Of a DNA stretch of 64,000 nucleotides, positions 11,969 to 36,422 are shown in pieces. Numbering within the stretch: the first letter of the stretch is position 1; each line of letters opens with the position of its first letter. The position numbers and the translations under genes were made by a program. Under the pieces are notes generated by a model. That model did not search any database and was not told the origin of the DNA. It saw only the letters and a list, made by a program, of their open reading frames with translations. This DNA is from SAR202 cluster bacterium bin22 (GTDB lineage Bacteria; Chloroflexota; Dehalococcoidia; Lucifugimonadales; UBA3495), in contig MPMM01000012.1 in assembly GCA_002238505.1 (NCBI GenBank), positions 1 through 64,000 of the forward strand. Direction: 5' to 3'.

Positions 11969-12012
11969 GAAGACACCTCCTAGAATTGTGAAATTAAAAA
12001 TTCACCGGAGCC

Positions 12013-12228
12013 CTAAACAACAATGCCAACCATACGGAGCAAGCCACCAAAGTAAAGAACAAGTCGATCCGCGAGCTCCGGTGAAAAGTATTGGACCAGG
12101 TAGGCCACCAGCGCCACGGCGACGACCAAGGCAATAATCGAAAAAACAAGGCCGGCGAGACGCCGCACAATGAAAAAAACCGCTACCAGGATGAGAACAA
12201 TCACGAGCAGTTGCAAAAAGAGTTCCAT
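12013..12228 (-). CDS. Small two-helix membrane protein of the T4SS operon
   Basis: This is a 71-aa protein, almost all hydrophobic, with two transmembrane segments (about 4-20 and 26-46) and a short amphipathic end. It lies between the pilin-like gene (2-base gap) and virB4. Small membrane proteins at this position in T4SS operons can be pilin-like (VirB2) or accessory. No cleavable signal is obvious. Confidence 0.65.
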   Translation of the reverse strand: MELFLQLLVIVLILVAVFFIVRRLAGLVFSIIALVVAVALVAYLVQYFSPELADRLVLYFGGLLRMVGIVV

Positions 12229-12230
12229 AA

Positions 12231-12899
12231 TCAGCCGCCCCGCTCCAAAGCTTCATAAAAGATAGCGCGGTCGCCACTCCAGGCATCAGTGGCGTTGAAT
12301 ATTACTGTGACGGTACCCTCATAAAGAACGTAGGCCATGCCGAGAATGATCATCCCGATGATGATCCGATAGATTCGAGACCTGCTGGCAGCGAGGTCGG
12401 ACCCTGCCGCGGACTCCTGCATATAAACGACGCCGGCAAAAACAAAACTGAGAGACAGGAACCCGGCCCCCAGTGCGACAGCGAAGTACCAGGCACGGGT
12501 AAGATCCTCGCGAAAGAAAGCGAGAGCACAGTGGCGCTTGAACCAGGTATTCTCAACGACCTGAAGATCCTCAGGCACTCCATACCACCGCCTCTCTTCC
12601 ACATCGAACTCAGGTCCACCGACAGCAACTCCGTCACGTTTCTCAGCACGGAAAGGCACTGAGACGCCACCGAAATCCCTATACTCTATTATTTGGCCCC
12701 TTGGAACGGCAGTTTGCGCCGCCACAGGAGCGCAGATGCAGACCTCGCTGTCCGGATTATCACGGCAAGTAGCGCCAAGCCACTTGAGTGTCAACTCATC
12801 AGCGACACCCTGCGCCGAGACGGGATCCCCCGGCAACAAAACCGACGCGACCGCGAACAACACAATTGCAAAGCGCAGGAGAAAGCCCATCCCCGTCAC
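12231..12899 (-). CDS. Signal peptide plus two-helix T4SS protein, VirB2-like
   Basis: This is a 222-aa protein. An N-terminal signal peptide ends near SAQG (about residue 30). A secreted region of about 105 residues with cysteines (CRDN, CICAP, HCALAF) follows, then two hydrophobic helices (about 138-160 and 180-198) separated by a charged turn with SRSRIYR. This helix-turn-helix membrane unit is like VirB2-type pilins of monoderm T4SS. The GTG start at 12899 overlaps the stop of the PrgI-like gene (GTGA). It could instead be a structural channel protein; the pilin-like topology and operon position are the only evidence. Confidence 0.65.
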   Translation of the reverse strand: MTGMGFLLRFAIVLFAVASVLLPGDPVSAQGVADELTLKWLGATCRDNPDSEVCICAPVAAQTAVPRGQIIEYRDFGGVSVPFRAEKRDGVAVGGPEFDVEERRWYGVPEDLQVVENTWFKRHCALAFFREDLTRAWYFAVALGAGFLSLSFVFAGVVYMQESAAGSDLAASRSRIYRIIIGMIILGMAYVLYEGTVTVIFNATDAWSGDRAIFYEALERGG

Positions 12900-13411
12900 C
12901 GGCCGAAAATAGCCTTGAACGCGTCCTTAAAACCCCGTTCCACCGCTACGGCGCCGTCGTTAACCGACCGGCTAACCTCCGCCTGGACCTCCATCCGGAC
13001 CGCCTGGCCCTGCTCGCTGTCAATATATTCGGCCTTCTTCGACCGGAAGAATCCCAACTGATACCACTTCGAAGAACGCCCCTGCTGTTCCAGCCAGACC
13101 AGGTTACCCCCGACGAGAAGCTCGGCCATTTCCTCATACGAGGGCTTAACAAACAAGCCTTTAACGAGATAAAAAAGGCAGGCCGGCAGGCTGAGCCCGT
13201 AGAGGCGGGCAAAGAGCAGAATCGAGGTTATCAACGTGGCAACGCCGGCAATTGCCAGGCGAACCACGGTACCGTAGGGGAACATCAACGAGATAACCAG
13301 CCAGATCAAAGACACGGCGATGACAGTAAATAGCTCCGGGAGGGACAGGCCCAAAAGATACTTGTCCTTGGAACCAAGAAAAGTAGGGCTGTCGTAACTG
13401 TCGAGGGGCAT
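12896..13411 (-). CDS. PrgI/VirB3-like membrane protein
   Basis: This is a 171-aa protein. The start (SPTFLGSKDKYLLGLSLPELF) follows the PrgI family pattern, where a short charged stretch containing D-K-x-L-x-G-L precedes two transmembrane helices (about 25-45 and 50-70). PrgI and VirB3 proteins sit beside VirB4 in the inner membrane part of the channel. The C-terminal ~90 residues are soluble and charged. It is located between the VirB6-like and VirB2-like genes, consistent with T4SS gene order. It overlaps the downstream gene by 4 bases. Confidence 0.75.
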   Translation of the reverse strand: MPLDSYDSPTFLGSKDKYLLGLSLPELFTVIAVSLIWLVISLMFPYGTVVRLAIAGVATLITSILLFARLYGLSLPACLFYLVKGLFVKPSYEEMAELLVGGNLVWLEQQGRSSKWYQLGFFRSKKAEYIDSEQGQAVRMEVQAEVSRSVNDGAVAVERGFKDAFKAIFGR

Positions 13412-13435
13412 CAGAAAACCTCAAGTTAAACAGGA

Positions 13436-16400
13436 TTACATGGAATCGAGAATCTTGTTGAGAGTCTCATTCATCTGTTCCATCTGATTGGTCAAGGCCC
13501 GGGTGCGCTCGGAATCAGCATCGGGGCGCTGCTGCTGTGCGCCGCGGTAGGACTGGCCACGTCGCTCCTGGCCGCCGCCCTCACCCTGACCGCCCGAGCC
13601 ACCCGGGGAACGGGAAGGATAGGCAAAATTGCCACTGAGCAACGAACGAATGCGACCATTAACCTCCTGGGAGCGTCTTATACCGGCACGACCGCCGGCC
13701 ATCCCGGCGTTGAAGCGATCAGAAAGGCTGGGGCCAGGCCTACGGCCAAAAGTACCGCGAGGCTCGCCAGCAGAAGGGGTCTCCGACTCGGAGCCGGAAG
13801 GAGAATCCGCACCACCGTCCGGGGGCAGCGCCGGACGAAAGCCGGAGACCATGCCAGAAGGCGACTGATCACCAGGAGAGGCAGGGCCTACACGCCCACG
13901 GCCGGACTCAGGACCCCCGGACACAACATTACGGGGAGAACCTGGGCGCTGCGCTTGACCACGGCCCACTACGCCAGAAGGACGATTCGCACCAGGACCA
14001 GAGCCGGTTACCTGACCCGCAGCAGGAGACCCAGCAGGTGGAGGAACAACAGCGCCGCTCGGACCCACACCCTGATCAGGCACACCAGAAGCCGAAGCAA
14101 TGCCGCCGCGCGGGCCAACACCGGAGACAGGAGCCCCAGAAGAAGTAAGAGGACGCCCCGCGACAACGGTGCGGTTAAGCGCGCCAAACTCGCCAGGACT
14201 TCGCATAACAGACCACGCGCCACGGGTAGACGCGCCAGGGATACCTCCTGTCATGAGCTGACGGGCGGTATCAACATTAGCGTTGTTATCAAAGGGCTGA
14301 TTGACACGACCCTCCGAATCAGAGAGACCGAGTCGGTCGCGATTCAGACCCAAGCCAATCGAATGCATACGAGTCATACGACCAGGCGGAGTGCGATTCA
14401 ACCCGTCAGGGCCGCGACCCTCAGGTCCCCCAGGCATACCAGGCGCCGGGGGCCCATGCGGGCCGTAAGGAGCGCCGGGAAGGCCGGCCAGAGACGAAGG
14501 CTGAGCCAGCAGACGTCCCCTCCGGTCGCCAGAGTCCGGATACAAACGGTTCGCGGACCTGAACCCAATGTTGCCAACATCCTGACCCATCGCCACAGGA
14601 GCAGGAGGCCCTTCCGGGCCGCCAGGATAGCCCGGCAACTCGCCCTGCACGGGCACCGGCACACCAGCATAGGCGCCGGGCAACGCCCCGGACTGAGAGA
14701 CGGAACCCTCCGGAACCTGGCCGGCTCGGCCGGAAGCAGGGCCGCCGCCAACGGGCGGCGGAGAAGAGCCCGGATCACGCTGACCGGGCAAAGGCGCGCT
14801 GCGGCGCCCAGGAGCCACCTGTTGACCAGATCTCTCATCAGGTCGGCCCACTGCCGGAGGCTGCTGACCTCCAGTAACAGGAGCCCCCGGGCGGGGAGGA
14901 GCCACCACAGCGGCCTGGGCGGTAGGCTCACCGCCGCTGACCTGCCCCGCGGTCTCGCCAGAAGGTGTCTGCATCGACTGCCCGGCGACCACGCCGGACT
15001 CTGCCTGAGCAGACTCAGGGTGGGAAGAAACCGACTGCTGCTGAGGCTGCTCAGACGATACGCTGCCTCCCATACGGCGGCCTAGGTTGAATCCAGCCGA
15101 GCGGACCGAGGAAAATGGGCTGAAGGACCGGCGACCGGTAGTGCTGACGTTCCCAGACTGTCCCTCCGAACCGCCGCCATTATTGACCGAACCGCCGCCT
15201 GGCGGATCATCACCGCCACCGCCACCGCCGCCCGGCGCACGGACGCCGCCGCCAGGGGGCCGCATGCCCCCGCCCCCTCGAACCATGCCCATCATCCCCG
15301 AAGAGGACGAGCCGCCAGCGCCGGCGAATCCGGCCGCAAAGCCAACGCCAGCGGAGGCAACCGTGAGTGCCGCGGCCCCAGCCATCATAAGGAGACTGCC
15401 AAATCCGTCAAAGACACCCTTGGAACCCGGGTTAACGATGTCAGGCACCTTCCCGGCCAGGAAAAAGATGGCGAACGCCATGACAACAGCGATAACGAAG
15501 TCCATCAACGAGTCGGCGTTGGTGCTGTTGAAATAACCCTCGGCGAAGTACAGACCTACAAACAGAACTATTACAACGACAACCTGCTGGAACACCGTGC
15601 CAAGGAACATGGTGACCCACTTGTTGGTCCAATGACTGGTATTAGGAGAGCTGTAGAAGACGAAGGCCAGCGGCGCGAAGACTATGAGAACAGCAAGCAG
15701 AGCCAGACGAATCAACAGTCCAAAGACTACCTTTCCGAAAACATAAAGAATGAAGATGAAAATGAAGAGAACGACGATAAGAATGGCCATCAGGGTGATC
15801 TTGCCCAAAATGAAGCCGGCAACCGCAAGCCCAATGGCATCTCCGAAGGCCTGGGTACTGGAGACAGAGTGCTGGAAAAAAGCAATCAGCGCGTCCAGCA
15901 GGAGGCCGAACACATTTCCCCAGATCCCCCACAGGCTCATGCCGGTATACTGACCGACCAGACAGGTAAGATCACCGGCGAGGATAAGGACCATCTGAAT
16001 GATGTAAAGACTGGAGGCAGCCAGAATGAGACCCAACAGCGCCCGGGGAATGAACTCACGGAGACCCACCGAAGAACGGGGATCAAGGCCAAAGTCATAA
16101 GTCATCCTGAGACCCTGCCAGACCAGAAGAACAAAGAAAACGGCACCGGCAAGAATCCACATAAAGCCCCACATGGAGCGCACGATACTATTGTCCCAGG
16201 TCAGAGCTGAAGGAGTCGCGGTGAGAAAATCAGTGCAAATGGCGGTGCCGGTTAAATTCAACAAGGTGAGGCCAGAAAACGCCTCAGCAAGCACATCGGC
16301 AGGGGGAGCATACGAAGCCCCGGCTGCGCCGTCCTGACATTCATAGAGAAGAGGAATCCTGCGGTCCTCAAACTCGCCGTTCTCATCGCGGGCCAAACAG

Positions 16401-19400
16401 GCCATGGTCGCGCCCTTAATGGGAAGAGGCTGCGACGCAGTCCCGGGTCGGGGAGGATCTCCCTCCTTACCAGGAGTTCCGACGTACGGGGTAACCCATA
16501 TCCGATAATTGAAACCGTCAGCGACGGGCATATCCAGAACGTGCTGATTAAGACCCAGATGGTCGCCATCGACATAACGCGCAGTAGAAGCAGGGGCCTT
16601 CAGCTCAAAAAAAGCTTGACTGGGAAGGTCCCCAGGCTCAGCAGCCTCAAAAGAATGAGGGAAACGGTAAATTGCACCATCCAACTCCTGATTGACACCG
16701 CCGTCAACAGGAAGCATCCCCATGGACCCGAACCAAAAGCCGTCAAGATCATAAATGTACGTTTTATTGTGGTCATCGCCACCACGGAGAGACTTGACCG
16801 TATATTCGCGGGGCAAAAAGAACTCCGCAATCTCGGATCCGGCAGAGGGAGAAGTACGAGTGCCGGCGGCAATAGAAACCTTAACCCCGTCAATGGACTC
16901 ATAGACGTCGCGGCTAACATCCTGATGCCAGCGGTAGTCCCACTCGACGCGAACCAACGAGAGACCCGAATTAAAGGCATGCGGGTTAAAACCTTCCGGC
17001 AATTCCGTATCGGCCGGCGTTCCAACAACCTCCTCAAAGACAGCATTTTCAACCTTGCCAGGATCACGATTATCCGCACCTACAGCATCCGCATACGAAT
17101 AAGCCTGAGCCAGGGACTCTGACGAACCCTGTCCAAAAGAGGCCCCGAGAAAGGGCCGATTGAGATCAAATCTTAGACGGTTAACTACGTCATCATCACC
17201 CTCCGTACTTCTCGGAAAGCTATACCAATCAAGCTTGTTATTGACTGACGGCCCCTCACGCTCTGCCGGATCGAGAGGCACCAAGTCGGCCGGAAGATCG
17301 CCCCGACCACCCTCAAGACTTACGAAATCCACATCGGCAACGCGAAGCTCCAGCGAGGGAAGGGTGACACACGAAGACCCATAGACAACACCTGAACTGG
17401 GGGAGCAAGCAACAGGTTCCTCGACACGAACCTTCTGACAGGTCTCAACGCCAGAGGCAACACTGTCAGCCACGGCATTATGATGAAGAACATCGCCCTC
17501 TACGGTGACCGGGGGCTCATACTCGACCGGACCGCCGTTGGTGGCCCGGGCCAGCTCGTCCAGGCCACCACAGGCGGCCTTGGAGACCTCCTTGGTAGCA
17601 GCCGGAGGCGCATCAGAGCCACCCTGGGCAAATGCCTTGAAAATGCCGGACAGCAGCACCCCCAAACCCTCGCCGATGGCGCCGCCCACAGCGCCAGCCA
17701 CAGCACCAGGAATCGAGGCGACGGCGCCGACGGCAGAACCTACCTTCTTCAGAGCGTCAACAAAAGTATTGGTCTCAGAATCCACCGCACCGGCATAGAA
17801 GACGGGCAACACGGCAAGGCGGCAGACAACCCGGCGAACCTGACGTTTCGGGACAGTGAAAAAGTTCGAACCTCCGGCCGGACCGTCGAAAGTGAGATCA
17901 AGAGATGAGTCTTCGTAGGTGAAAGGACTCCGGGACTCGTAGAAAGCAACCACCAGCAGGTAAGGAGCATTGGGATCAAGATCCGAATCCTCAGGAGTAG
18001 AAGCACAGAGACCTGTTGTCTCAACACACGGCCAGCTGGAGGTATAATCGGCGCGAGCCTCAGGATGTTGAGGGACGCCAAGCCGGTCAGCAGCAATCGG
18101 ATCCGACGAAGAGGCCAAGGTATCAGAGAAGACGCGACTCTCCTTGACAACAAAACTGAACTCATTCAGGGAACGCAGCGACCCGGAGTTATTATCGGAA
18201 GGGGAGGCAACGCCAGCCGAGACCAGGAGAAGCGAAGCGAAAGAGAATCCGGCCCCCCCGCCAGCCCGCTGGAAAGGAAAGAAATTGCCGCCAGCAAGAT
18301 TCTCACAGGTAATATCGGTCCGCGACGCTCCAGAACCCTTATACCCGCAGTTGGTAGCCAGCTGACCAGGCTCGCCTTGAGTGGTAAACCCAGAGTTGAC
18401 CAGCTCCTGAGACCCCTGGGGAGAATTAAACAGGAGCCAGTGCTGATCATCCGGAGAGTTTGACTGGATCTCCGGAAGGGAGAAGATCTGCCAGGACAAG
18501 TCCTCGAAATTGGCAGGCCAGCGTACCCGGGTGAGCGCCGGATCCTGATGGGTAGAACCCGACTGAGACTCAGGGTAAACGGTATCAAGAACCGGACGGC
18601 GGAAGCCCCGGTGAGGACCCTCCGACACAGGAAGATTATCGCGGTACCGCCCAGGAAGAGTACGGTCATGCTGGGTATAAGACCACGGTTTCGTACCAAA
18701 GGCTGGGAGCACAGCCAGATCGGGGCCGATGGACCCAAAGTACCAGCCAAAATCAGAGCGATGGGTCGGATCCAGAGTCAAGTTGACATGCAACTCATCT
18801 CCCCCAGGAACCTGGCGCTGGCTCAGAAACGAGTAACCCGCCCCCAGGCTGCCGACACGGCCCTGAAGCGTCGAGCTACCGATGTAACTCACGTCAACCG
18901 GTATAACATTCCGGGTATAAGTGCCATCACCTACCGGAACCTGTATTTCACGCCCCTGGCTGCTGGCCACAAAAGTAGTGTCGAAAAACTCCCCATTATT
19001 TATATCGGTCCCCTCAAAGTGAAGATCAACCGAGTCCGGCTCCGACCGGGTCACGGTTGACGATGAACAGGAACCGCCATTATAAACACAGGTAACCGTG
19101 GTGCTGCTGCTGATGGTAATCGTTGGAAAAGTGCCAACGAGCGTAATGCGGCGCCCTCCGCCATGAGCAGCAGTCCGGGAGGCGATAGTAATATCCGCAA
19201 TACCAGCAACCAGATCATGGAGGAACTGGGCGTCGTCACGCTGCACCCCACCGCTCGGGTTATCAACGTCCAGCCACTGACCGTTGAAAGAAGTAAGACG
19301 GCTGGCGTCACCCGCAGCAGGATCCGGGGGCTTCTGCGGACCAACACGCCGATACGCGTTATAAAGATCACGATGAGCCTGCGTATTGCCATTAGTCTTA

Positions 19401-19915
19401 TGCCAAGGAGTACGAGGGAAATAGTCGTCAGATCCCACTGACTTGAGAATCGACGGATCTGCGCCTGGCTGACAAGGGTCAAGATTAGTCAAGAGATGAC
19501 GCATGCGGTGAGCCAGGGCGTCATAATTACAGAGGATCTTCAAGTCCGCCCCAGCCGTGTCAAACCGGAAGTAATGGCCAACGTCAATCAGCTCCGCAAT
19601 CGAGCCAAAAGGGGCTACCGCACGCGACTGAGGGTGCTTGCCAGCAAAATCGACCCAAGGTTTGTTGTCAGGAAGAGTGACCGCAGGCCCAGAGCCACCT
19701 GGAAGATACGGAAGGTAATCCTGCTCATCAATGGCATAGACCATCGAAGGGTCACCCCACTGAGACGTCCAGCACATCCAGGTAGAACCGGTATCAGCCG
19801 TCACTGTCGATGACGGCACGAGAACGAAAATAATTAAAAGGAGGCAAGCCACGGCACAGATATACCAGCGCCGCGGCGGCCAAAAGGCACAAAAGAACCT
19901 TAAAAAGTTACCCAT
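13436..19915 (-). CDS. Giant VirB6/TrbL-like T4SS membrane protein with ectodomain
   Basis: This 2159-aa protein has three parts. (1) A signal-anchor (about residues 17-40) and a roughly 1190-residue exported region with many aromatic and beta-rich repeats and scattered cysteines. (2) A polytopic membrane domain (about 1235-1530, some 6-7 helices) resembling VirB6/TrbL channel proteins. (3) A cytoplasmic or flexible tail of about 630 residues made mainly of Gly, Pro, Ser and Gln, ending in a short coiled coil (ERTRALTNQMEQMNETL). VirB6 proteins are usually 300-900 aa. The exported N-terminal part is therefore very large and may reach across a thick envelope or contact the recipient. A TATAAT hexamer lies 7 bases before the ATG, so the transcript may be leaderless. 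Confidence 0.8.
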   Translation of the reverse strand: MGNFLRFFCAFWPPRRWYICAVACLLLIIFVLVPSSTVTADTGSTWMCWTSQWGDPSMVYAIDEQDYLPYLPGGSGPAVTLPDNKPWVDFAGKHPQSRAVAPFGSIAELIDVGHYFRFDTAGADLKILCNYDALAHRMRHLLTNLDPCQPGADPSILKSVGSDDYFPRTPWHKTNGNTQAHRDLYNAYRRVGPQKPPDPAAGDASRLTSFNGQWLDVDNPSGGVQRDDAQFLHDLVAGIADITIASRTAAHGGGRRITLVGTFPTITISSSTTVTCVYNGGSCSSSTVTRSEPDSVDLHFEGTDINNGEFFDTTFVASSQGREIQVPVGDGTYTRNVIPVDVSYIGSSTLQGRVGSLGAGYSFLSQRQVPGGDELHVNLTLDPTHRSDFGWYFGSIGPDLAVLPAFGTKPWSYTQHDRTLPGRYRDNLPVSEGPHRGFRRPVLDTVYPESQSGSTHQDPALTRVRWPANFEDLSWQIFSLPEIQSNSPDDQHWLLFNSPQGSQELVNSGFTTQGEPGQLATNCGYKGSGASRTDITCENLAGGNFFPFQRAGGGAGFSFASLLLVSAGVASPSDNNSGSLRSLNEFSFVVKESRVFSDTLASSSDPIAADRLGVPQHPEARADYTSSWPCVETTGLCASTPEDSDLDPNAPYLLVVAFYESRSPFTYEDSSLDLTFDGPAGGSNFFTVPKRQVRRVVCRLAVLPVFYAGAVDSETNTFVDALKKVGSAVGAVASIPGAVAGAVGGAIGEGLGVLLSGIFKAFAQGGSDAPPAATKEVSKAACGGLDELARATNGGPVEYEPPVTVEGDVLHHNAVADSVASGVETCQKVRVEEPVACSPSSGVVYGSSCVTLPSLELRVADVDFVSLEGGRGDLPADLVPLDPAEREGPSVNNKLDWYSFPRSTEGDDDVVNRLRFDLNRPFLGASFGQGSSESLAQAYSYADAVGADNRDPGKVENAVFEEVVGTPADTELPEGFNPHAFNSGLSLVRVEWDYRWHQDVSRDVYESIDGVKVSIAAGTRTSPSAGSEIAEFFLPREYTVKSLRGGDDHNKTYIYDLDGFWFGSMGMLPVDGGVNQELDGAIYRFPHSFEAAEPGDLPSQAFFELKAPASTARYVDGDHLGLNQHVLDMPVADGFNYRIWVTPYVGTPGKEGDPPRPGTASQPLPIKGATMACLARDENGEFEDRRIPLLYECQDGAAGASYAPPADVLAEAFSGLTLLNLTGTAICTDFLTATPSALTWDNSIVRSMWGFMWILAGAVFFVLLVWQGLRMTYDFGLDPRSSVGLREFIPRALLGLILAASSLYIIQMVLILAGDLTCLVGQYTGMSLWGIWGNVFGLLLDALIAFFQHSVSSTQAFGDAIGLAVAGFILGKITLMAILIVVLFIFIFILYVFGKVVFGLLIRLALLAVLIVFAPLAFVFYSSPNTSHWTNKWVTMFLGTVFQQVVVVIVLFVGLYFAEGYFNSTNADSLMDFVIAVVMAFAIFFLAGKVPDIVNPGSKGVFDGFGSLLMMAGAAALTVASAGVGFAAGFAGAGGSSSSGMMGMVRGGGGMRPPGGGVRAPGGGGGGGDDPPGGGSVNNGGGSEGQSGNVSTTGRRSFSPFSSVRSAGFNLGRRMGGSVSSEQPQQQSVSSHPESAQAESGVVAGQSMQTPSGETAGQVSGGEPTAQAAVVAPPRPGAPVTGGQQPPAVGRPDERSGQQVAPGRRSAPLPGQRDPGSSPPPVGGGPASGRAGQVPEGSVSQSGALPGAYAGVPVPVQGELPGYPGGPEGPPAPVAMGQDVGNIGFRSANRLYPDSGDRRGRLLAQPSSLAGLPGAPYGPHGPPAPGMPGGPEGRGPDGLNRTPPGRMTRMHSIGLGLNRDRLGLSDSEGRVNQPFDNNANVDTARQLMTGGIPGASTRGAWSVMRSPGEFGALNRTVVAGRPLTSSGAPVSGVGPRGGIASASGVPDQGVGPSGAVVPPPAGSPAAGQVTGSGPGANRPSGVVGRGQAQRPGSPRNVVSGGPESGRGRVGPASPGDQSPSGMVSGFRPALPPDGGADSPSGSESETPSAGEPRGTFGRRPGPSLSDRFNAGMAGGRAGIRRSQEVNGRIRSLLSGNFAYPSRSPGGSGGQGEGGGQERRGQSYRGAQQQRPDADSERTRALTNQMEQMNETLNKILDSM

Positions 19916-27983: not shown

Positions 27984-29375
27984 ATGAAGCTTACCTGCTC
28001 CAAAGACAACCTGCGCCAGGGAGTCGCCACGGTCCGGCGCGCCATAAACAACCGCAACACGCTGCCAATCTGCGACAACATATTGCTGGAGGCCCAGGAC
28101 AACCAGATACTCCTCACCGGCACCAACCTGGAAACCACGATCATGACAAGAATTCCAGCGGTCATCGACCGGGAGGGCAGCGTGACCCTGCCCAACCGGC
28201 TGTTCGCCGAATACATTGGAACCATAGCAGAGGAGACGATCAACCTGGACTCGCCAGAGGAAAAGGCATACACCATCTTCACTGCCGGCGGCCACACCGC
28301 CACGATCCACGGAGCCAACCCCGAGGACTATCCCCCGCGGCCCACGGTCAACGAGGGAATCGCCGGCAGCGTAGAGGCCGAGGAATTCGGCAGAGCACTC
28401 AACCGGGTCGTAGGCGCCACCGCCAAGGAAGAAAGCCGACCGGCACTGACCGGAGTCAACATCAGGACCAGCGGCCCCGCCTTCAAGGTGGCAGCCGCCG
28501 ACGGGTTCCAGCTGGCAGTGGACCAGGGCGACCTGCTGGAACCTCCGGCCGAAGACCTGGACGTGATCATCAAAGCCAACACCATCCACGAGATAATCCG
28601 GAACGCCCAGGGCGCCACCGAACCGGTGCGCTTCCTGATGGTTCCCGAACGGCACCAGGCGCTCTTCATGATCGGAAGATTGAAGATCTTCACCCAGCTC
28701 ATTGACCAAGCCTTTCCCAACACCGAAAAGCTGATACCTACAACCTACAGCGCCCGAATGGTGGTGGCCACCAAGGACTTCAACCGGGCCGCGAAGACCG
28801 CCGCCCTGTTTGCCAAGGACGACAGCAAAATTATCCGAATGAGAACGCAGAAGACCGAAGGCCTGGCCGACCCGGGTGTAGGTCAGTTGACCGGCCGCTC
28901 AGACCAGATAGGCGAGACCTCGATCACCTTCCGGGTGAAGGAATACGAGGGCGACAACGCCAAGGTTGCCCTGAACGGCGACTACATGCTGGAAATAGGA
29001 GACGTCGCCGGCGACGACGTGGAAATCCGAATAGACCGCACGGACACGCCGGTCGTCATAGGAATACCGGGAAGTGAACATTACCACAGGGTCATCATGC
29101 CCATGTTCACGAGCTGGCCGGACGAGGGACCAATTATGGTAACCGCAAACGGTCCTGCGCCAAGCCAGCCAACGGCCGGCGAAGACGACGACGTCATCCA
29201 GGTGGAAGACACTAACGAGTCCCCGGAGCCAGCCGCAAGTGTCGAACCGGACGAGGAGAACGAATTCGAAAGGAGCAACGCCAATCCGGAGGACCCATTC
29301 TCCGAACCCACCAACAGTGAAGACTTCGAGGAAGCGGAGAAGGAACAAATGGCCGCCGGCAGCGCCGAAGGCTAA
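27984..29375 (+). CDS. dnaN: DNA polymerase III beta subunit (sliding clamp) with acidic tail
   Basis: This is the ring-shaped processivity factor that tethers DNA polymerase and repair proteins to DNA. The three-domain clamp spans residues 1-373, with conserved landmarks such as the N-terminal MKLTCSKDNL, the central region with ADGFQLAV, and the C-terminal HRVIMPMF, which normally ends the protein. Here about 85 extra residues follow (380-463), strongly acidic and Glu/Asp/Pro-rich. A chromosomal copy presumably exists, so this is probably an element-specific clamp. A ribosome site (AAGGAGAG) precedes the ATG and an intrinsic terminator lies just upstream. It is followed by the ubiquitin-like cassette. 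Confidence 0.93.
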   Translation: MKLTCSKDNLRQGVATVRRAINNRNTLPICDNILLEAQDNQILLTGTNLETTIMTRIPAVIDREGSVTLPNRLFAEYIGTIAEETINLDSPEEKAYTIFTAGGHTATIHGANPEDYPPRPTVNEGIAGSVEAEEFGRALNRVVGATAKEESRPALTGVNIRTSGPAFKVAAADGFQLAVDQGDLLEPPAEDLDVIIKANTIHEIIRNAQGATEPVRFLMVPERHQALFMIGRLKIFTQLIDQAFPNTEKLIPTTYSARMVVATKDFNRAAKTAALFAKDDSKIIRMRTQKTEGLADPGVGQLTGRSDQIGETSITFRVKEYEGDNAKVALNGDYMLEIGDVAGDDVEIRIDRTDTPVVIGIPGSEHYHRVIMPMFTSWPDEGPIMVTANGPAPSQPTAGEDDDVIQVEDTNESPEPAASVEPDEENEFERSNANPEDPFSEPTNSEDFEEAEKEQMAAGSAEG

Positions 29376-29424
29376 ATCAGCGCCGCCGCAGGACAGAACA
29401 GCGGACTACGAAAAGAACAATCAA

Positions 29425-29453
29425 TGCCCGGACCTACAGTGAAGGCCCGGGCA
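29425..29453 (+). terminator. GC-rich intergenic hairpin
   Basis: TGCCCGG (29425-29431) pairs with CCGGGCA (29447-29453) between dnaN and the Ubl gene. There is no T-run. It could reduce, but probably not stop, read-through into the ubiquitin-like cassette. Confidence 0.4.
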
Positions 29454-29476
29454 CTTGCACATCAAAGGAGAGAGGC

Positions 29477-29872
29477 ATGAACAGAGTCTTTCTTTACAAC
29501 GGAACAGAGTACCCGGACCCGGACCCCAACATGAGCGTTGAGGAGGTCAAGAGCCACCTAGCCGAATTCATGCCCGAACTGGCCAACGCAACCGTCGCCG
29601 AGAAGAGCCAAGGGCTGGAAACCGTCTACGAATTCACCGTAAAGGTGGGAACAAAGGGCCTGAACGGGACCGAAGTCATTGCCGCAACGCTCGATGAGTT
29701 GAAGCCCTGCCGTCCAAAGATCCTGAAGATGTTGGCCGAGATTGACGTCTCGGGAGAAGACGTCTACGACGCCCTGGACCAGGGACGGCTTGCCGAGGCA
29801 AGCGCAGAAGCGGACGCGCTGCTGAAATCGGCTCAGCACGTCGCCTCCATGATCAACGACACCATAGGTTAG
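29477..29872 (+). CDS. PRTRC protein C-like ubiquitin-like modifier (Prok_Ub) with C-terminal extension
   Basis: The first 61 residues match the PRTRC system protein C / Prok_Ub family: RVFLYNGTEYPDPDPNMSVEEV near the start, then MPELANATV, and KVGTKG (56-61). Family members I recall end at or near that TKG glycine. Here 70 more residues follow (62-131, mostly helical), so the modifier would need cleavage after Gly61 to expose a free glycine, possibly by the JAB protein encoded three genes on. The ribosome site is AAGGAGAG. It is first of the ubiquitin-like cassette and lies 101 bases behind dnaN. The Ubl assignment rests on sequence pattern; conjugation is inferred. Confidence 0.82.
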   Translation: MNRVFLYNGTEYPDPDPNMSVEEVKSHLAEFMPELANATVAEKSQGLETVYEFTVKVGTKGLNGTEVIAATLDELKPCRPKILKMLAEIDVSGEDVYDALDQGRLAEASAEADALLKSAQHVASMINDTIG

Positions 29873-29875
29873 CAA

Positions 29876-30718
29876 ATGCTGAAGCTCCAGGACCTGTGCC
29901 AAAAGCTTGAACCCATGTTAATTCGAATCGACCACCTGGCCGAGGCGCTAAGCGCCACCAAGGTAAATAACCGGGTTACCCGCCTGATACGGGAGTTCCT
30001 CCCGGGCCTGGAAGGCAGCATACGGAACCAGGGCGCCATGTATACGCTGGCGGCCGGGTTCTACCGGCGATTCTTTCCGCTGGAGCTGGGAACCATCCTC
30101 GACGAGTCAATGGAGGACGGTACCGACGAAGACAACGAGTTCACGATGGAATACTTCGAACACATACGGATAGCTCCAATGGGAGTCCATCCCGAACACG
30201 CCATGTACACGACACAGGGGCAGCACAGCATCTTCTCCTACGCGTACATCCTGGGCGACGTCACCGAGTTCGCAGGCGAGATCATAGAAGAAAGCTACGC
30301 AGGTACCCTGCGCGCCATGCACAGCGAGGAGCTCGAAATGGGAGACAACCTCGGAGAGATAATCGAGGATATACCCCAAAAACCCTTCAAGCTTCAGGAA
30401 ATCAGAGGGGCCCTTACGGGAACCAGATTCCAGCGATTCACCGAGGTTGTCGAGTACGCCATGGCAATACCCGACAACATATTCGTCCGAAAGAACACTG
30501 AAAACCGGTTCGAACTAGCCGACAACGGACCGTGGACGTGGGAAAACGTCCAGCGCCTCACGGCGGAATGGAAAGAGGGAGAACGGCTGCAGAGACGGGC
30601 CCACAACGCGGGCTTAACGTGGGAACCCGTTCTTGAGAAGCAGATGGCCCGAATTCTGAAACTTCTCATAGACTACCGAGAAAAGCAGGAGGGACCACCC
30701 GAGGAGATGCAAACGTGA
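29876..30718 (+). CDS. Helical protein of the PRTRC cassette, possibly PRTRC protein F
   Basis: This is a 280-aa, largely helical, soluble protein. In PRTRC operons, a helical protein (F) accompanies the modifier and E2, and the position between them here fits. I do not see a diagnostic motif, so the assignment is by context. It starts three bases after the Ubl stop. Its stop overlaps the E2-like gene (GTGA), so all are likely expressed together. Confidence 0.6.
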   Translation: MLKLQDLCQKLEPMLIRIDHLAEALSATKVNNRVTRLIREFLPGLEGSIRNQGAMYTLAAGFYRRFFPLELGTILDESMEDGTDEDNEFTMEYFEHIRIAPMGVHPEHAMYTTQGQHSIFSYAYILGDVTEFAGEIIEESYAGTLRAMHSEELEMGDNLGEIIEDIPQKPFKLQEIRGALTGTRFQRFTEVVEYAMAIPDNIFVRKNTENRFELADNGPWTWENVQRLTAEWKEGERLQRRAHNAGLTWEPVLEKQMARILKLLIDYREKQEGPPEEMQT

Positions 30719-31386
30719 TAGCAGGACTGGAATTCGACCCCGACAAGCTGGACTTCCAGACCGACGAAGGAAAGCTAACCCACCGGCTGGACTGCTACGA
30801 GAGCGGCCTGGTGCTGACCAGGTACCTGGACAATGGTATCACCCTAACGCACGTGGACGGAGACGCCCTGTTGCGCGTGATTCAGAGAAACCTGCAGAGC
30901 AGCACGCCACTGCTGCCAGAGGGAACCGTCCACTACCGGAACACCAAGGCCGGCCCGGAATTCACGATCTGGGTTCCGCCCAGGACCTGGCCGGTAACAC
31001 TGGTCACCGGCGCCGCGACCAAGCCCGAGCAATTAAAGATTCCCCTGCCGGGGCTGCTGTTCACCTGCTCAGCGAACCGGCCGCCGGTAATCTTCGCGGC
31101 CCTGGCCAGGCCGAAAACAGGCGACGAAGCCGTCTATAAAGCCCCACTGCTGAACTGCTTCGAGAACGGCACATCGTGCCCGGGAAACCACATATTCCCG
31201 TCCCAGCCGGACAAAATCCCGGCGTCCTTCTTCGAGAGCCGGTTCAGTCCCCACCAGGGCACCGGCATGCTCGCCAGCCACCAGGACAGCATACTCAGCC
31301 TGTGGCGCGACATCGACGGCAAACGAAAATTCCCCAAGGAGTCCTTGAGATACCATGGGACCTTCAACGAAACCTACAATAGGTGA
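30715..31386 (+). CDS. E2-like conjugating protein (PRTRC protein B / Prok-E2_D)
   Basis: This is a 223-aa protein. It has the pattern of PRTRC system protein B, which is considered a prokaryotic E2-like (UBC-fold) family: a hydrophobic PLPGLLF strand, then APLLNCFENGTSC with Cys155 in the position expected for the catalytic cysteine (family pattern: aPx-Nv-dG-xC-G). A second cysteine, Cys148, lies close by. It would receive the activated Ubl from the E1-like enzyme. A GTG start overlaps the preceding stop and AGGAG lies 9 nt upstream. It overlaps the JAB gene by 32 bases. Confidence 0.78.
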   Translation: MIAGLEFDPDKLDFQTDEGKLTHRLDCYESGLVLTRYLDNGITLTHVDGDALLRVIQRNLQSSTPLLPEGTVHYRNTKAGPEFTIWVPPRTWPVTLVTGAATKPEQLKIPLPGLLFTCSANRPPVIFAALARPKTGDEAVYKAPLLNCFENGTSCPGNHIFPSQPDKIPASFFESRFSPHQGTGMLASHQDSILSLWRDIDGKRKFPKESLRYHGTFNETYNR

Positions 31387-31972
31387 GCTGGAGCTGGCAG
31401 ACCTGCCCGCCGGCTACGTCTTCAAGAACCGCAACGGTTACTCAGGTGCAAGAGGACGGGCCTACACATACATCACCGCGGCCAACGGGATCTTCATCAC
31501 TGCAAGCAGCGAATCACTGGAGGCAACGACTCTGGTAGCCCCCTCAGACGTGGCCATCAGAGGCCTCGATGAAGAGCAGGAAAGTATAACGCTGCCCAAC
31601 GGGAAGCTGCCGGCCAAAGCCATCAGAGAGCAAATCCTGTGGACCATGGAAGACCTGGACACCGAACGGCTGTTCAGCATCACATGGGATCCTGAGACCG
31701 GGACATACAAAGCCGCCAGACCGGGCCAAAGTGGCACGGCGACCGCGCTGGAATACGACAAACAGCAAAATGCTGTGCTGGAACTGCACTCCCACGGAAG
31801 GTCACAGCCGTTCTTCTCGAGCACCGACAACGCCGACGAGCAGGGATTCAGGATCTACGGCGTCGCGGGTACCCGCAAGACCGCAGCGGGAACGCACAAC
31901 GCGTTCCAGCTCCGCCTGGGGATCTACGGGGTATTCCGAAGAATTAAACTGACTGAAATAGCCGAGGAATGA
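31355..31972 (+). CDS. JAB/JAMM metallo-isopeptidase (PRTRC protein A-like)
   Basis: This is a 205-aa protein. The JAMM signature HxH-x7-S-x2-D is intact: His145, His147, Ser155 and Asp158. Glu143 or an earlier acidic residue could be the catalytic acid. JAB proteases cleave ubiquitin-like modifiers from targets or trim precursors. In this cassette it probably processes the C-terminal extension of the Ubl and/or removes the Ubl. The gene overlaps the E2-like gene and its stop overlaps the E1-like start (ATGA). PRTRC protein A is the corresponding family. Confidence 0.8.
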   Translation: MGPSTKPTIGELELADLPAGYVFKNRNGYSGARGRAYTYITAANGIFITASSESLEATTLVAPSDVAIRGLDEEQESITLPNGKLPAKAIREQILWTMEDLDTERLFSITWDPETGTYKAARPGQSGTATALEYDKQQNAVLELHSHGRSQPFFSSTDNADEQGFRIYGVAGTRKTAAGTHNAFQLRLGIYGVFRRIKLTEIAEE

Positions 31973-32763
31973 AAATGGCATCGTTAGAAAGCAAAGTCAG
32001 CTGCCCAAAGGTCCACAAAGTCGCAATAGTCGGCTGCGGCGGCACAGGAAGCCTGCTCGCCGAAAAGCTGATGAGACTGCTCACCGGAACAACCGTGGAC
32101 CTGATCCTGATCGACCACGACGAGGTGGAACCACACAACCTGCTCCGTCAAGGCTTCTACGAGAAGGACCTGGGCAAAAATAAAGCCCTGACGCTGGCCG
32201 AGAGGCTGGCCAGGAACTTCCGAAGAAAGGTAACGGCCATCCCCGAAAAGGCTTCAGCGCACAACCTCAACCGAGCGGAGTTAATCATAGGCTGCGTCGA
32301 CAACGCCAAGGCCAGAAGAACGCTCGATGAGCTATACAAGCCGGACCGGTCGGGACTACCGAGAGGCCACGGCTGGTACATCGATGTCGGGAACAGCGAA
32401 AACACCGGGCAGCTGCTGATCGGGAACGCCACGGCGGATAGCAAAAAGCCCGTCACGGACTATTACCGCGAGGTGGAAGGAATTAACCTGATCCAAAAGC
32501 TGCCAACGCCAGGAACCCAGCAGCCAGGGCTGCTGATCGACGCGGTCGAAGAATACAACCCCGACCGGGACTGCGCCATGGCAGTGATGCTGCAGGAACA
32601 GGACCCGGCCATTAACGACGCTATGGCCACGCTGGCCAACAACACGGTCTACCGGTTGGTGACCGGCCGGTGCAACCACATGGCCCAATACCTGAACCTG
32701 GAGTTCGGTAATCTCACGACAATCGCAGCAACGCCGGAAAACATCAAGAAAGTAATATCCTGA
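31969..32763 (+). CDS. ThiF/E1-like adenylyltransferase (PRTRC ThiF)
   Basis: Activates the C-terminus of a ubiquitin-like protein with ATP (role known for E1/ThiF family). The nucleotide-binding GCGGTG motif is at residues 22-27, followed by IDHDEVEPHNLLRQ (aspartates 49 and 51 and the Asn/Arg that contact ATP). The conserved KNKA follows at 70-73. A DRDCAM segment near residue 203 offers a cysteine for thioester transfer. The 264-aa length fits PRTRC ThiF proteins. It starts within ATGA of the JAB gene. MoeB/ThiF relatives would have a rhodanese or C-terminal CxxC pair, which is absent. Confidence 0.88.
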   Translation: MKMASLESKVSCPKVHKVAIVGCGGTGSLLAEKLMRLLTGTTVDLILIDHDEVEPHNLLRQGFYEKDLGKNKALTLAERLARNFRRKVTAIPEKASAHNLNRAELIIGCVDNAKARRTLDELYKPDRSGLPRGHGWYIDVGNSENTGQLLIGNATADSKKPVTDYYREVEGINLIQKLPTPGTQQPGLLIDAVEEYNPDRDCAMAVMLQEQDPAINDAMATLANNTVYRLVTGRCNHMAQYLNLEFGNLTTIAATPENIKKVIS

Positions 32764-32782
32764 AAGAAGGAACCGCAACGGC

Positions 32783-33286
32783 ATGACGCAGGAAAATGAC
32801 GAAACCAGGATCATAGACCTGTCCGAAGAAGAGGACGAAACCGAACCCGTAGAACTTACCGAAGACGACGAGAACGCGGAAGAAGGCGAAGAGGGCAGCA
32901 CAGCGCCAGGGGAAAAGGCGGAACCAAAAGGAGAAGCTACCGCATCAGAGACCCCCCAGCCGGACAAACCGGAGCTGAAGATCGTGATACGGCTTGACGA
33001 GAAGATCACGGTGGGAATACAGGGCAAGGAGACCTACCCGGTCTTCTACACGTTGGAAGAAAGTGAGATCGAAGCGCTGGGCGAGCCCATCGCCGGGTTG
33101 GTGCGCAAGGCGAAGGACCAGTGGGACAAGCAGCCTCAGCTGAACAAGTACGACGCGAAGAAATCAAAGACCAAGCCGTCTCCGCCAGCGGGTACACTGG
33201 CCGCTACAACCACGACCAAGAAGCCGCCGCCAGCGCCGCGGCCCAAGAACACGGCGACAACCCAGTCAGGACCCAAACTGCTTTAG
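32783..33286 (+). CDS. Acidic-N, basic-C protein, possibly PRTRC protein E-like
   Basis: This is a 167-aa protein. Residues 1-55 are highly acidic (Glu/Asp), the middle (about 60-110) is a compact domain with a LKIVIRLDEKITVGI strand, and the C-terminal 45 residues are basic and Pro/Thr/Lys-rich. PRTRC protein E is a small protein with a central strand region followed by a basic tail, and this gene sits where E would be expected. That is a weak pattern match, so treat as tentative. It has a ribosome site (AAGAAGGA). Confidence 0.55.
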   Translation: MTQENDETRIIDLSEEEDETEPVELTEDDENAEEGEEGSTAPGEKAEPKGEATASETPQPDKPELKIVIRLDEKITVGIQGKETYPVFYTLEESEIEALGEPIAGLVRKAKDQWDKQPQLNKYDAKKSKTKPSPPAGTLAATTTTKKPPPAPRPKNTATTQSGPKLL

Positions 33287-33295
33287 GAGGCGGTG

Positions 33296-33757
33296 ATGCT
33301 GGCCTACCACACCGGGAACATCTTCGAGTCCGAGGCTCAGGCCATCGTGAATCCCACCAATTGCCTGGGACCGATGGGAGCAGGACTGGCGAAGCAATTC
33401 AGCCGCCGCTACCCGGCCAACACGGCGCAATACCGCAGGGAATGCGCCCAGGGGCTGATCAAGCCAGGGCGCCTCAACTGGTTCAACACCGGCCGGGAGA
33501 CCCCGGAGTGGATAGTTAACTTCCCAACCAAGAACGACTACCGCCGTCCCAGCAGACTGGAATACATCCAGGAAGGACTGGACACCCTGGCCGAAGAGCT
33601 GACCAAGAGGGCAATAGCATCAATTGCCATCCCGCCACTGGGCTGCGGGCTCGGCGGACTGCCCTGGAACGCGGTCCGCGCAGAGATAGAAACCAGATTA
33701 AGCGGGTTGGAACAATGCACGATAATTCTCCTGGAACCTCCAGTCCAACGACGTTGA
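33296..33757 (+). CDS. Macro domain protein (DarG/TARG1-like ADP-ribosyl hydrolase)
   Basis: This is a 153-aa single macro domain. Signature VNPTNCLGPMGAGLAKQF at about 18-35 and the later PPLGCGLGGLPW loop are as in macro domains that remove ADP-ribose from DNA or proteins. The NFPTKNDYRRPSRLEYI region carries the Lys and Arg typical of the DarG/TARG1 branch. No DarT toxin gene is adjacent. I chose ATG at 33296 (AGGAGG 5 nt upstream); a GTG three bases earlier gives one more residue. It is embedded between the ubiquitin-like cassette and the MrfA-like helicase. Confidence 0.88.
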   Translation: MLAYHTGNIFESEAQAIVNPTNCLGPMGAGLAKQFSRRYPANTAQYRRECAQGLIKPGRLNWFNTGRETPEWIVNFPTKNDYRRPSRLEYIQEGLDTLAEELTKRAIASIAIPPLGCGLGGLPWNAVRAEIETRLSGLEQCTIILLEPPVQRR

Positions 33758-33800
33758 TCAACCAGAGGAGCAAACCGACAGACCAAAGGGGATATCGCCG

Positions 33801-36422
33801 ATGACCAGCTCGACAGGACTAAAATGTTCAAGGTGTCACCAGCCGGCCACAGCCGCCAGAACGGACCCTAACGGGAGTCTCAGCCTGTGCATCGGCTGCG
33901 CGGCGCTGGAATCGCTGACCGTACCGGCCGAGCCCGAAAAGCGGAGCGCCGCGCCCGATAAATACCAGCATGGGGCCGCAGGAACCCTGATCCACAGGGT
34001 TGACGCCCAAGGAAAGATATGGAGCCACCAGGCGCTCTCGCTGGAAATCCTGGGCACCGGCGCCAACCTGGTAGTCTCAACGGCGACGGCGTCAGGAAAG
34101 ACGCTGATCTTCCAAAGCCATGCCATGCAGGTAACAACGGAAACGGACGCAACAGCGCTGGTACTCTACCCGATCAAGGCGCTGGGGAATGACCAGGCTG
34201 AAAAATGGAGGGAGGCCGCGCAGGCAGCCGGTTTGCCCGGAAACGCCATAGGCCGCATAGACGGCGATACCCAGATGCAGCACCGGACGGCCATCCTGGA
34301 CCGGGCAAAGGTGGTAGCGATGACACCGGACGTGTGCCACGCATGGCTGCTGCGAACCCAGGGACAGTCAGCCCAGGCCAGATTCCTGGCAAAACTGAAG
34401 CTGGTAATCATTGACGAAGCACACACCTACGACTCAGTGTTCGGATCCAACGCGGCGTACATGTTCCGAAGGCTAATCAGCGCCGCAATGGCCGAGACCC
34501 ACAGGAAGAATGTCCAGTTTATAGCTGCCACGGCCACAATACTAGAACCGGCGCAGCACATGAAAAACCTGACCGGCCAGGACTTCGAAAGCGTTGCACA
34601 GGAGATGTGCGGCGCCCCGCGCCAGGCGAGGGAAATCCACCACGTTCCCGCCGACGGAGGCAGCCACGTCCTGGAACAAACCACCGCCAGGTTGATGAAC
34701 GCAATCATCAACGCGGACCCAAGCGCCCAAATCATCACTTTCCATGACTCACGCCAAGGCGTAGAAAGAATTGTGCAGTATGCCGGAAGACCCGACGACA
34801 TAGTCCCGTACCGTTCAGGCTACCTGGGAAGCGAGAGAAAGGACATCGAAGACCAGCTCCGCCGAGGGGCCATAAGGGGCGTGGTAAGCACCTCCGCCCT
34901 CGAAATGGGCATTGACATGCCGGACCTGAGCTACGGCCTTAACGTGGGACTCCCAACGACGCGCAAGCAGCTGCATCAGAGATTGGGCCGAATCGGCAGG
35001 ACCAGCCCGGGGACGTTCATAATAGTCGCTCCCAGCAGCCAGTTCGAAGCCTACGGCGACTCAATGGAGGATTACATTCGCGAAAGCGTCGAGGCGACCA
35101 ACCTGTACATTAACAACGAACACATCGGATACCACCAGGCCAGGTGCCTGAAACAGGAACTGGAAACGAGGGGCGCCAACGCCATGATTCCACCGGAAAA
35201 CTGCCGCTGGCCGGATGGATTCCAGCAACTGATGAGGGAAGCCCACAGCCGAACGCCAAGGCTCAATTCAATAAGGCCCCCGGCCAGCGGACCGCCGCAG
35301 CTCAATCACACCATGAGAAGTACAGGAGAAGAAGAACTGCAGCTGATGGCTGTAGACCAAGGGCACGGACAGAGCCAGCCGGAACAGCGGAAAGTGGGAA
35401 CGATAAGCCTTCCCTACGCCATGAACGAGGCTTACCCCGGCGCCATCTACCGACATTACGGGAAGTGCTACGAGGTTCAGGAATGGGCCCGAAACCGCAG
35501 CAGCAAAGAGGGGCGCATAAAGATGCAGCAAATCCCTTCGGTCCGAGAGAGAACACATAGCCTGGAACGGCAGCTCGCCGTTATTGACCTGGACCAGACC
35601 AGAAACAGCCAGGACCTGAAGGAGAAAGAAAGGGGGTTCTACCAGAGAACCGCCATGAACATTATCCAATCGGTGGAAGGATTCGTTAAAACGGGAGACC
35701 CTCCGGTCCTGTACGAAAACCTGTCCCGCATAGACCCGGGCAAGAGCCGCAAACAACGGACCTACGGGACGACCGGACTGCACATCACCATTGACAGCGA
35801 GTGGTTTCAGGGTAACGACAGCCAGGGTTGGGCCAACCGGGTACAGCTCGCCAAGACGCTCAAGAGCCATCTGTGCTACCGCAGAAGCATAGCCAGCGGC
35901 GACATCGACTTCGTGGCCGACAACATCTTCCTGAAAAGCGCCAAAGGCTGCATGCTGAGCGAAAACTCCCTAGTCGTTTACGACGATGTGATCGGCGGGC
36001 TCGGGCTAACGAACCACCTGTTCGAAAACCTGAGGGATTACGCCGACAGCCTGCTCAGGTCTGCGACCGACGAGAAAACAAAGCTGGAGCGCATAGAAAG
36101 GAAGACCGCTCGGCTCTTCCTGCAATGGCTCGACGAGAGGCAACAACAGGCTCCAACGAGCCAGGACGAACAGACCAGCTGGTGGCGGGTACTCCAGCCT
36201 GGCACGAGGATAAGATACTACAGCCCAAGAAAGAAAGCCCTCGACGAGGGGACCACCGAGGAGCCGATCTGGCAGGAAGGGATTAAGTACATACTGAGGA
36301 ATAAGGAAGGGCAGATAGAGCTTGAACCCGTGGGCGAGGACGCGCTGCAGCCGATAAGACCGGCTGACTGGCAACTATGGATGCCAGCGGACAACCGATA
36401 CGAGCGGGTCCGCATCGACTGA
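33801..36422 (+). CDS. MrfA-like SF2 DEAD-box helicase with DUF1998-type C-terminus
   Basis: This is an 873-aa helicase. Walker A TATASGKT is near 95-101, motif II DEAH near 205, motif VI QRLGRIGR near 393. The DUF1998-like C-terminal core follows, recognised by VYDDVIGGLGLTNHLF. The family unwinds damaged DNA (MrfA repairs mitomycin lesions). The cysteines that normally bind zinc in DUF1998 are not visible here. Instead there is an N-terminal finger CSRCH...CIGC (residues about 9-33). It is last gene of the apparent dnaN-Ubl operon, with a dyad-type terminator after it. Confidence 0.85.
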   Translation: MTSSTGLKCSRCHQPATAARTDPNGSLSLCIGCAALESLTVPAEPEKRSAAPDKYQHGAAGTLIHRVDAQGKIWSHQALSLEILGTGANLVVSTATASGKTLIFQSHAMQVTTETDATALVLYPIKALGNDQAEKWREAAQAAGLPGNAIGRIDGDTQMQHRTAILDRAKVVAMTPDVCHAWLLRTQGQSAQARFLAKLKLVIIDEAHTYDSVFGSNAAYMFRRLISAAMAETHRKNVQFIAATATILEPAQHMKNLTGQDFESVAQEMCGAPRQAREIHHVPADGGSHVLEQTTARLMNAIINADPSAQIITFHDSRQGVERIVQYAGRPDDIVPYRSGYLGSERKDIEDQLRRGAIRGVVSTSALEMGIDMPDLSYGLNVGLPTTRKQLHQRLGRIGRTSPGTFIIVAPSSQFEAYGDSMEDYIRESVEATNLYINNEHIGYHQARCLKQELETRGANAMIPPENCRWPDGFQQLMREAHSRTPRLNSIRPPASGPPQLNHTMRSTGEEELQLMAVDQGHGQSQPEQRKVGTISLPYAMNEAYPGAIYRHYGKCYEVQEWARNRSSKEGRIKMQQIPSVRERTHSLERQLAVIDLDQTRNSQDLKEKERGFYQRTAMNIIQSVEGFVKTGDPPVLYENLSRIDPGKSRKQRTYGTTGLHITIDSEWFQGNDSQGWANRVQLAKTLKSHLCYRRSIASGDIDFVADNIFLKSAKGCMLSENSLVVYDDVIGGLGLTNHLFENLRDYADSLLRSATDEKTKLERIERKTARLFLQWLDERQQQAPTSQDEQTSWWRVLQPGTRIRYYSPRKKALDEGTTEEPIWQEGIKYILRNKEGQIELEPVGEDALQPIRPADWQLWMPADNRYERVRID

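Follow-up and report, generated by a model that had tools for sequence, protein, structure and literature searches.

The window analysed here comprises bases 1-64000 of contig C23 (102,540 bases) from a 4.39-Mb metagenome-assembled genome, SAR202 cluster bacterium bin22. At 27984-33286, it encodes a sliding clamp (DnaN), a ubiquitin-like protein (Ubl), a helical protein, an E2-like protein, a JAB metallopeptidase, an E1-like enzyme and an acidic protein, and the nearest relatives of this cassette are found in Chloroflexota, many of them Dehalococcoidia. We propose, with moderate confidence, that the cassette is the Ubl conjugation system of a plasmid-like element and works at the DNA sliding clamp, docked there by an adaptor. 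From its sequence and that of its relatives, we read the acidic protein as this adaptor. The enzymes themselves are already known as type 6d or PRTRC systems, for which we know of no established target; the connection with the clamp across phyla is apparently new, as no link of these systems with a clamp was found in the open papers searched. The cassette features are as follows.

27984-29375, plus strand: DnaN, the genome's second sliding clamp (TIGR00663; three clamp domains)
29477-29659, plus strand: Ubl part of a fusion, 61 residues, ending in GTKG (Prok_Ub/PRTRC_C)
29660-29872, plus strand: 70 residues appended after GTKG (encoded separately in split loci)
29876-30718, plus strand: helical protein in the PRTRC F position (conserved family; helical model)
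30715-31386, plus strand: E2-like protein, catalytic Cys155 (Prok-E2_D; invariant residues)
31355-31972, plus strand: JAB metallopeptidase (Prok-JAB; invariant metal-site residues)
31969-32763, plus strand: E1-like adenylating enzyme, candidate catalytic Cys202 (ThiF/PRTRC_ThiF; invariant residues)
32783-33286, plus strand: acidic protein, putative adaptor (conserved family; structure model; tails of relatives)

The adaptor family was found in most Dehalococcoidia-type cassettes. The window protein comprises a disordered N-terminus and a small core (approximately residues 63-117), from which a long linker, also disordered, leads to a hydrophobic C-terminal peptide. In a structure model, the core was predicted as beta-beta-beta-alpha, with block pLDDT values of 80-92. 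In cyanobacteria, Anaerolineae and Nitrospira, the protein encoded directly upstream of the Ubl has the same layout. Profile comparison with hhalign related the cyanobacterial to the Anaerolineae cores (99%, E = 7e-21) and the Chloroflexota to the cyanobacterial cores (82%, E = 1.2e-5), the Chloroflexota cores matching the cyanobacterial and Anaerolineae ones with E values of 1.2e-5 and 8e-4, compared with 0.2-0.8 for unrelated controls. Assignment of the core to a known fold was rejected, given a best Foldseek E value of 0.8, as was a relation to LptE (best VIA Z-score of 5.3 over 72 residues, not significant).

Bacterial clamp-binding peptides follow the motif QL[S/D]LF, or more broadly QxxLF, which is C-terminal in some proteins such as PolC (PMC12309361). 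QL[ST]LFG is the C-terminus of all seven Chloroflexota adaptors from cassettes of the order dnaN-adaptor-Ubl (one of them, from locus L088, has no dnaN in view), and other Chloroflexota adaptors end in QTLRLF, QTPMF, QPPMF, QPKFF, QPKMF or QQALL. The ends of those encoded upstream of the Ubl in other groups are QLSLF, QLTLF, QISLF, QMSLF, QMTMF and PQS[TS]LF. Among 62 adaptors, comprising 33 Chloroflexota members found by profile and 29 chosen among the open reading frames (ORFs) that immediately precede the Ubl, in part with their tails in view, so that this half of the statistic is inflated, C-terminal Qxx[LM]F was present in 39, compared with 31 of 5574 control ORFs, and is thus about 110 times commoner. 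It was absent from the other cassette proteins (0/485). Considering the profile-found Chloroflexota members separately, 11 of 33 carry Qxx[LM]F and 31 of 33 have two of L, M or F at the end. The controls with the strict motif are mostly large proteins, including polymerases of the same elements, and plasmid-encoded polymerases in L109, L211 and L220 end in the same peptide as the adaptors. L149 (17068-19671) and L151 (12654-14936) each additionally encode a large protein with QL[TS]LF close to its C-terminus.

The linkage between cassette and clamp gene is genuine and widespread. Among 38 cassette-bearing genomes, 15 loci from 13 Chloroflexota genomes have a second dnaN no farther than about 8 kb from the E2 gene, and all 13 possess another, higher-scoring dnaN elsewhere; in some genomes, an additional dnaN is on a separate short contig, where linkage is not readable. 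A cross-phylum survey of genome contigs covered 80 loci located by E1 alone, with one genome per species, which partly repeat the loci of the Chloroflexota comparison; it found dnaN in 42 of them, invariably on the cassette strand (42/42), and in 20 of the 32 loci having 10 kb on both sides. The linked loci include Chloroflexota, cyanobacteria, Nitrospira and one bin labelled Deltaproteobacteria. Chance linkage would amount to about 1% per locus if a 5-Mb genome is assumed, and 20 of 32 corresponds to p of about 2e-6 even if both genes were always carried by one 100-kb plasmid. A Chroococcidiopsis plasmid has the order JAB-E1-...-dnaN-dnaX-polymerase and that of the actinobacterial Rubrobacter marinus has dnaN-...-JAB-E1; no cassette was found close to the plasmid dnaN genes of Deinococcus, Oceanithermus and Erythrobacter. 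In one Chloroflexota genome, a cassette accompanied by a dnaN and an adaptor of its own is present on each of two contigs (L149 and L151).

The same parts occur in three gene orders, and the linkage has therefore outlasted rearrangement: dnaN-adaptor-Ubl-F-E2-JAB-E1 (L067, L068, L073, L074, L093); Ubl-small-F-E2-JAB-E1-adaptor-dnaN (L085, L086, L095, L098, L099, L144, L146, L167, with the cut contigs L082 and L163 consistent with it); and dnaN-Ubl-F-E2-JAB-E1-adaptor in the window. In some loci (L074, L073), the dnaN and adaptor genes overlap by 4 bp or adjoin. In a maximum-likelihood tree, the linked clamps fall in several places, and the supported branches require four label changes or more; the linked clamps are thus polyphyletic, and dnaN was recruited more than once. 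The window clamp pairs with the chromosomal clamp of its own host (97/98), on a long branch of less certain position. Inheritance of a plasmid backbone would not by itself readily account for separate lineages gaining the same partner.

The window DnaN matches TIGR00663 with 215 bits (cut-off of 138) and contains Pfam clamp domains 1-3; the genome's other dnaN, on contig C16, scores higher and is the chromosomal copy. The residues of the hydrophobic peptide-binding cleft are kept in the window clamp and in the linked clamps, which fits putative docking. Behind its VIMPM end, the window clamp bears an acidic C-terminal tail of about 85 residues. Such tails are also present in L085, L086, L095 and the cyanobacterial clamps, and are absent from L067, L068, L073, L074, L093, L094 and L099, so the tail was discarded as a general feature of linked clamps. 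The linked dnaN of L098 (6314-7449) lies in two overlapping frames, owing to a frameshift or an assembly error. A preliminary description of this stretch had tied the cassette to the clamp and named beforehand what should then be seen, namely profile matches for its proteins and a conserved linkage to dnaN in relatives; both were found, and the clamp-binding tail of a conserved adaptor family further backs the link.

Several observations weigh against our proposal, in addition to the selection of the upstream-encoded adaptors described above. The window adaptor ends in QSGPKLL, where both the Gln and the Phe of the motif are missing. Any binding by this copy may thus be weak or nil, or depend on a clamp that diverged with it, and the general claim is therefore based on the adaptor family rather than on the window copy. 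An order-level group of loci (L084, L087, L089, L090, L097, L100) has kept the adaptor with no dnaN nearby, and the survey loci L160, L173, L180, L186, L189 and L201 lack both dnaN and an identifiable adaptor, as does the 3-kb contig L162. Finally, no conserved lysine was found among 16 linked clamps. Together with the patchy distribution of the acidic tail, this last result led us to consider that the clamp may be a docking platform instead of the target. It likewise bears on the suggestion of the preliminary description that the clamp or its acidic tail is the substrate, which found no backing in these comparisons. That DnaN is itself the dedicated substrate, tagged on lysines or on the tail as in PCNA ubiquitination, is accordingly doubtful in our view, even though the conserved dnaN linkage would suit it, the adaptor would position the E2 at the clamp, and a lysine subject to PCNA-type modification must be reachable and need not be conserved.

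A purely structural reason for the linkage, in which dnaN and the cassette merely share the compact replication and maintenance region of a plasmid backbone with no biochemical link, would agree with the occurrence of the cassette on plasmids and conjugative elements and with the Chroococcidiopsis plasmid, where dnaX, polymerase and holA genes follow dnaN. We nevertheless regard it as unlikely, given the uniform strand across several gene orders, the repeated recruitment of unrelated dnaN genes, the dnaN-adaptor overlap and the clamp-binding tail on a cassette protein. Still less probable is clamp-directed interference, whereby tagging brought in by the adaptor tail would act on the clamps of the host or of competing phages and plasmids to stop their replication and the element's own divergent clamp would resist, serving defence or selfish competition. 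In its favour are the second clamp unlike that of the host, the location on mobile elements, generic E1-E2 matches in PADLOC, and the part that related systems of E1, E2 and JAB play in defence against phages (CBASS Cap2/Cap3, PMC10097602). However, carriers such as L087, L097 and L100, which have the adaptor and no clamp of their own, would be left unprotected, the operon has no defence effector, and the window clamp keeps the same cleft. As for a non-conjugating role, some E1/Ubl pairs (ThiF/ThiS, MoeB/MoaD; PMC1779556) work in sulfur transfer, and the Ubl could similarly be a sulfur carrier or assembly factor, with the E2 and JAB as remnants; the invariance of the E2 Cys and the JAB metal site, and a cassette without thiamine or molybdopterin genes, make this very improbable.

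The cassette genes are arranged head-to-tail. AGGAG-type ribosome sites precede both DnaN and the Ubl, which are separated by 101 bp, and the Ubl stop at 29872 is followed by the helical-protein start at 29876, three bases on. The helical-protein and E2 genes overlap by 4 bp (30715-30718), those of the E2 and JAB by 32 bp (31355-31386), and those of JAB and E1 by 4 bp (31969-31972). Profile searches matched the Ubl to Prok_Ub (50 bits; cut-off of 25) and PRTRC_C (49.3 bits; cut-off of 45.95), the E2-like protein to Prok-E2_D (50 bits; cut-off of 25), JAB to Prok-JAB (27.8 bits; cut-off of 25) and the E1-like enzyme to ThiF (73.6 bits; cut-off of 28). Residues N147, C155 and G157 of the E2 are invariant in 35/35 aligned homologs, as are E104, HSH145-147, S155 and D158 of JAB in 29/29 aligned sequences, and the GxGG loop, D49, R60, Q61, K72, D111 and C202 of the E1 in 29/29. 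By these residues, the three enzymes look active. The positions, order and overlaps (29876-31972) given in the preliminary description were thus correct, its identification of these four proteins agrees with the curated profiles, and the E2 Cys155 that it named and the JAB HxH/S/D site that it called intact are invariant across relatives. It overlooked that the acidic protein at 32783-33286 is a cassette member and that the Ubl is a fusion.

In the window, the Ubl reads GTKG at residues 58-61 and continues for 70 further residues; fusion to a second part is likewise found in L066, L067, L068, L073, L088, L093 and L094. In split homologs (L081, L085, L086, L091, L095, L098 and L099, as well as Deinococcus, Polaromonas and Sphingobium), GTKG or GAKG is the very end of the Ubl; in the split loci of Chloroflexota, a short gene of its own, about 73 codons long, comes next. 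Because split homologs stop exactly there, GTKG is taken as the mature end, and the fused Ubl would therefore require cleavage at this point before activation. JAB probably matures it by cutting after GTKG, since the helical domain fused behind this motif is a separate gene elsewhere. Processing of Ubls by JAB is also predicted for such operons in the literature (PMC1779556). The helical protein is a conserved family kept between Ubl and E2 and is largely helical in the model. Its assignment to a known enzyme or E3 was rejected, as it matched nothing in Pfam, NCBIfam or the Protein Data Bank (PDB), and searches with the model gave a best Foldseek E value of 2.1 and a best VIA Z-score of 3.9. 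In L090 (6591-9851), its gene is interrupted by an inserted ORF of 664 residues (7525-9519), and the E2 gene of L151 (6051-9304) shows a similar interruption.

The action of an adaptor-docked system at the clamp may be envisaged as follows. JAB would cut the Ubl precursor after GTKG, upon which the E1 would adenylate the exposed glycine and hand the Ubl via Cys202 to Cys155 of the E2, as the invariant residues and knowledge of these families suggest. The adaptor core, the helical protein or both might hold the E2, and the flexible C-terminal peptide of the adaptor would insert into the hydrophobic cleft of a DNA-loaded clamp, either the element's or the host's. Docking would place the conjugation enzymes at the replication machinery. 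There, the Ubl could be attached to the clamp itself or to replication and repair proteins bound to it, and JAB could remove the mark again. The likely purpose would be to govern how polymerases or partners are exchanged while the element is replicated or damaged.

In eukaryotic PCNA ubiquitination, Ubl enzymes work at the sliding clamp and short clamp-binding peptides act as recruiters. We suggest only tentatively that the present system is a bacterial counterpart, in which the clamp or its riders would be reversibly Ubl-modified via the clamp-docked adaptor, and that this would be the general job of type 6d/PRTRC systems of plasmids in many phyla. The comparison is of the works-like kind and claims no relation in sequence. 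A clamp-binding tail on a conserved member would give these systems an address, the replication clamp. If true, bacteria would possess a ubiquitin-style clamp control independent of PCNA ubiquitination, or there would be an ancient link between Ubls and replication.

The type 6d operon (Iyer, Burroughs and Aravind 2006, PMC1779556) unites a Ubl with a C-terminal glycine, a helical protein, a Cys-bearing E2-like protein, JAB and an E1-like enzyme. The window contains the Ubl glycine, here internal, the invariant E2 Cys, intact JAB and E1 sites, and the helical protein. Unlike type 6d, it adds dnaN, the putative clamp-binding adaptor family and the fusion of the Ubl to a helical domain; in the text of PMC1779556, DnaN is absent and "clamp" occurs once. 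PRTRC looks like the ParB-bearing form of type 6d. The window shares its C-F-B-A-ThiF gene order (NCBIfam TIGR03734-TIGR03742; ParB-E-C-F-B-A-ThiF on the Cupriavidus taiwanensis plasmid) and reaches the cut-off for protein C. Unlike in PRTRC, the scores for A (51.5; cut-off of 101.8), B (54.8; 131.45) and ThiF (135.3; 144.75) are all below the cut-offs, and no match for PRTRC ParB was found in the window's 97% complete genome. The preliminary description's label of a complete PRTRC cassette was consequently not retained: ParB is unmatched, and the E2, JAB and E1 fall short of the PRTRC equivalog cut-offs.

PRTRC protein E occupies the same place as the cyanobacterial and some Chloroflexota adaptors and has an adaptor-like layout of small domain, acidic linker and hydrophobic tail. 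Canonical protein E tails read TDLASLL, TDLSSLL and TDLLSLLG, and that of L214 is DLSLF; those of Polaromonas (FDFEM) and Sphingobium (PASLW) do not fit the pattern. These tails offer hints that clamp docking may be general and extend to protein E. Profile comparison of the adaptor with protein E gave no significant match (hhalign E value of 0.07); TIGR03741 (protein E) did not match the adaptor and equally did not match the controls. The helical protein and PRTRC F agree in position, with no profile match between them. With CBASS type II Cap2/Cap3 (PMC10097602), the cassette has in common a bacterial E1/E2 conjugation machinery and a JAB-type protease; unlike CBASS, it has separate E1 and E2 genes, its own Ubl and no cGAS-like enzyme, and no cGAS-like nucleotidyltransferase or effector was found among the genes of 27984-36422. 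A dedicated known defence system was rejected, as the PADLOC matches are to generic E1, helicase and DarG models only.

Two further genes follow downstream.

33293-33757, plus strand: DarG-like macro domain; neighbour, cassette membership not shown (profile)
33801-36422, plus strand: MrfA/TIGR03817-like helicase; neighbour, cassette membership not shown (profile)

The former matches the macro domain profile with 65.8 bits and the latter DEAD/Helicase_C and TIGR03817. The preliminary description named both correctly and counted them to the cassette run; this second part did not hold, as neither recurs as a cassette neighbour in the related loci compared. The macro domain stands alone, matching DarG with 190 bits over its first half only, and no DarT was noticed beside it; it is possibly an antidote to DarT-type DNA ADP-ribosylation.

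Concerning the element itself, no close DNA relatives on known plasmids were found, and a viral origin was set aside, since IMG/VR gives only four distant relatives of the E1 and none of the helical protein. Type IV secretion genes lie on the minus strand at 9341-19915, including a VirB4/TraC-like ATPase and a 2159-residue protein with a TrbL/VirB6-like segment, and the element is therefore probably conjugative. Contig C23 further carries thymidylate kinase-, ThyX- and dCTP deaminase-like ORFs and a protein with a primase C-terminal domain. Throughout C23 (the window, L002 and L003), A exceeds T on the plus strand, with an AT skew of about +0.26 to +0.42, which at third positions is +0.57 for plus-strand and +0.72 for minus-strand genes; there is no switch point and little GC skew. 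The genome's other sampled contigs have an AT skew of about 0 (one of +0.12), and other cassette-bearing loci of at most +0.16. The uniform skew suggests one-directional or single-stranded replication of the element. Finally, a ribonucleotide reductase-like ORF of 1037 residues at 55285-58398 seemingly carries an intein, a putative insert of about 260 residues that, judged by eye from the translation, starts with NPCVTGDTLV and ends with FVLHNCGEQPLAPYES.

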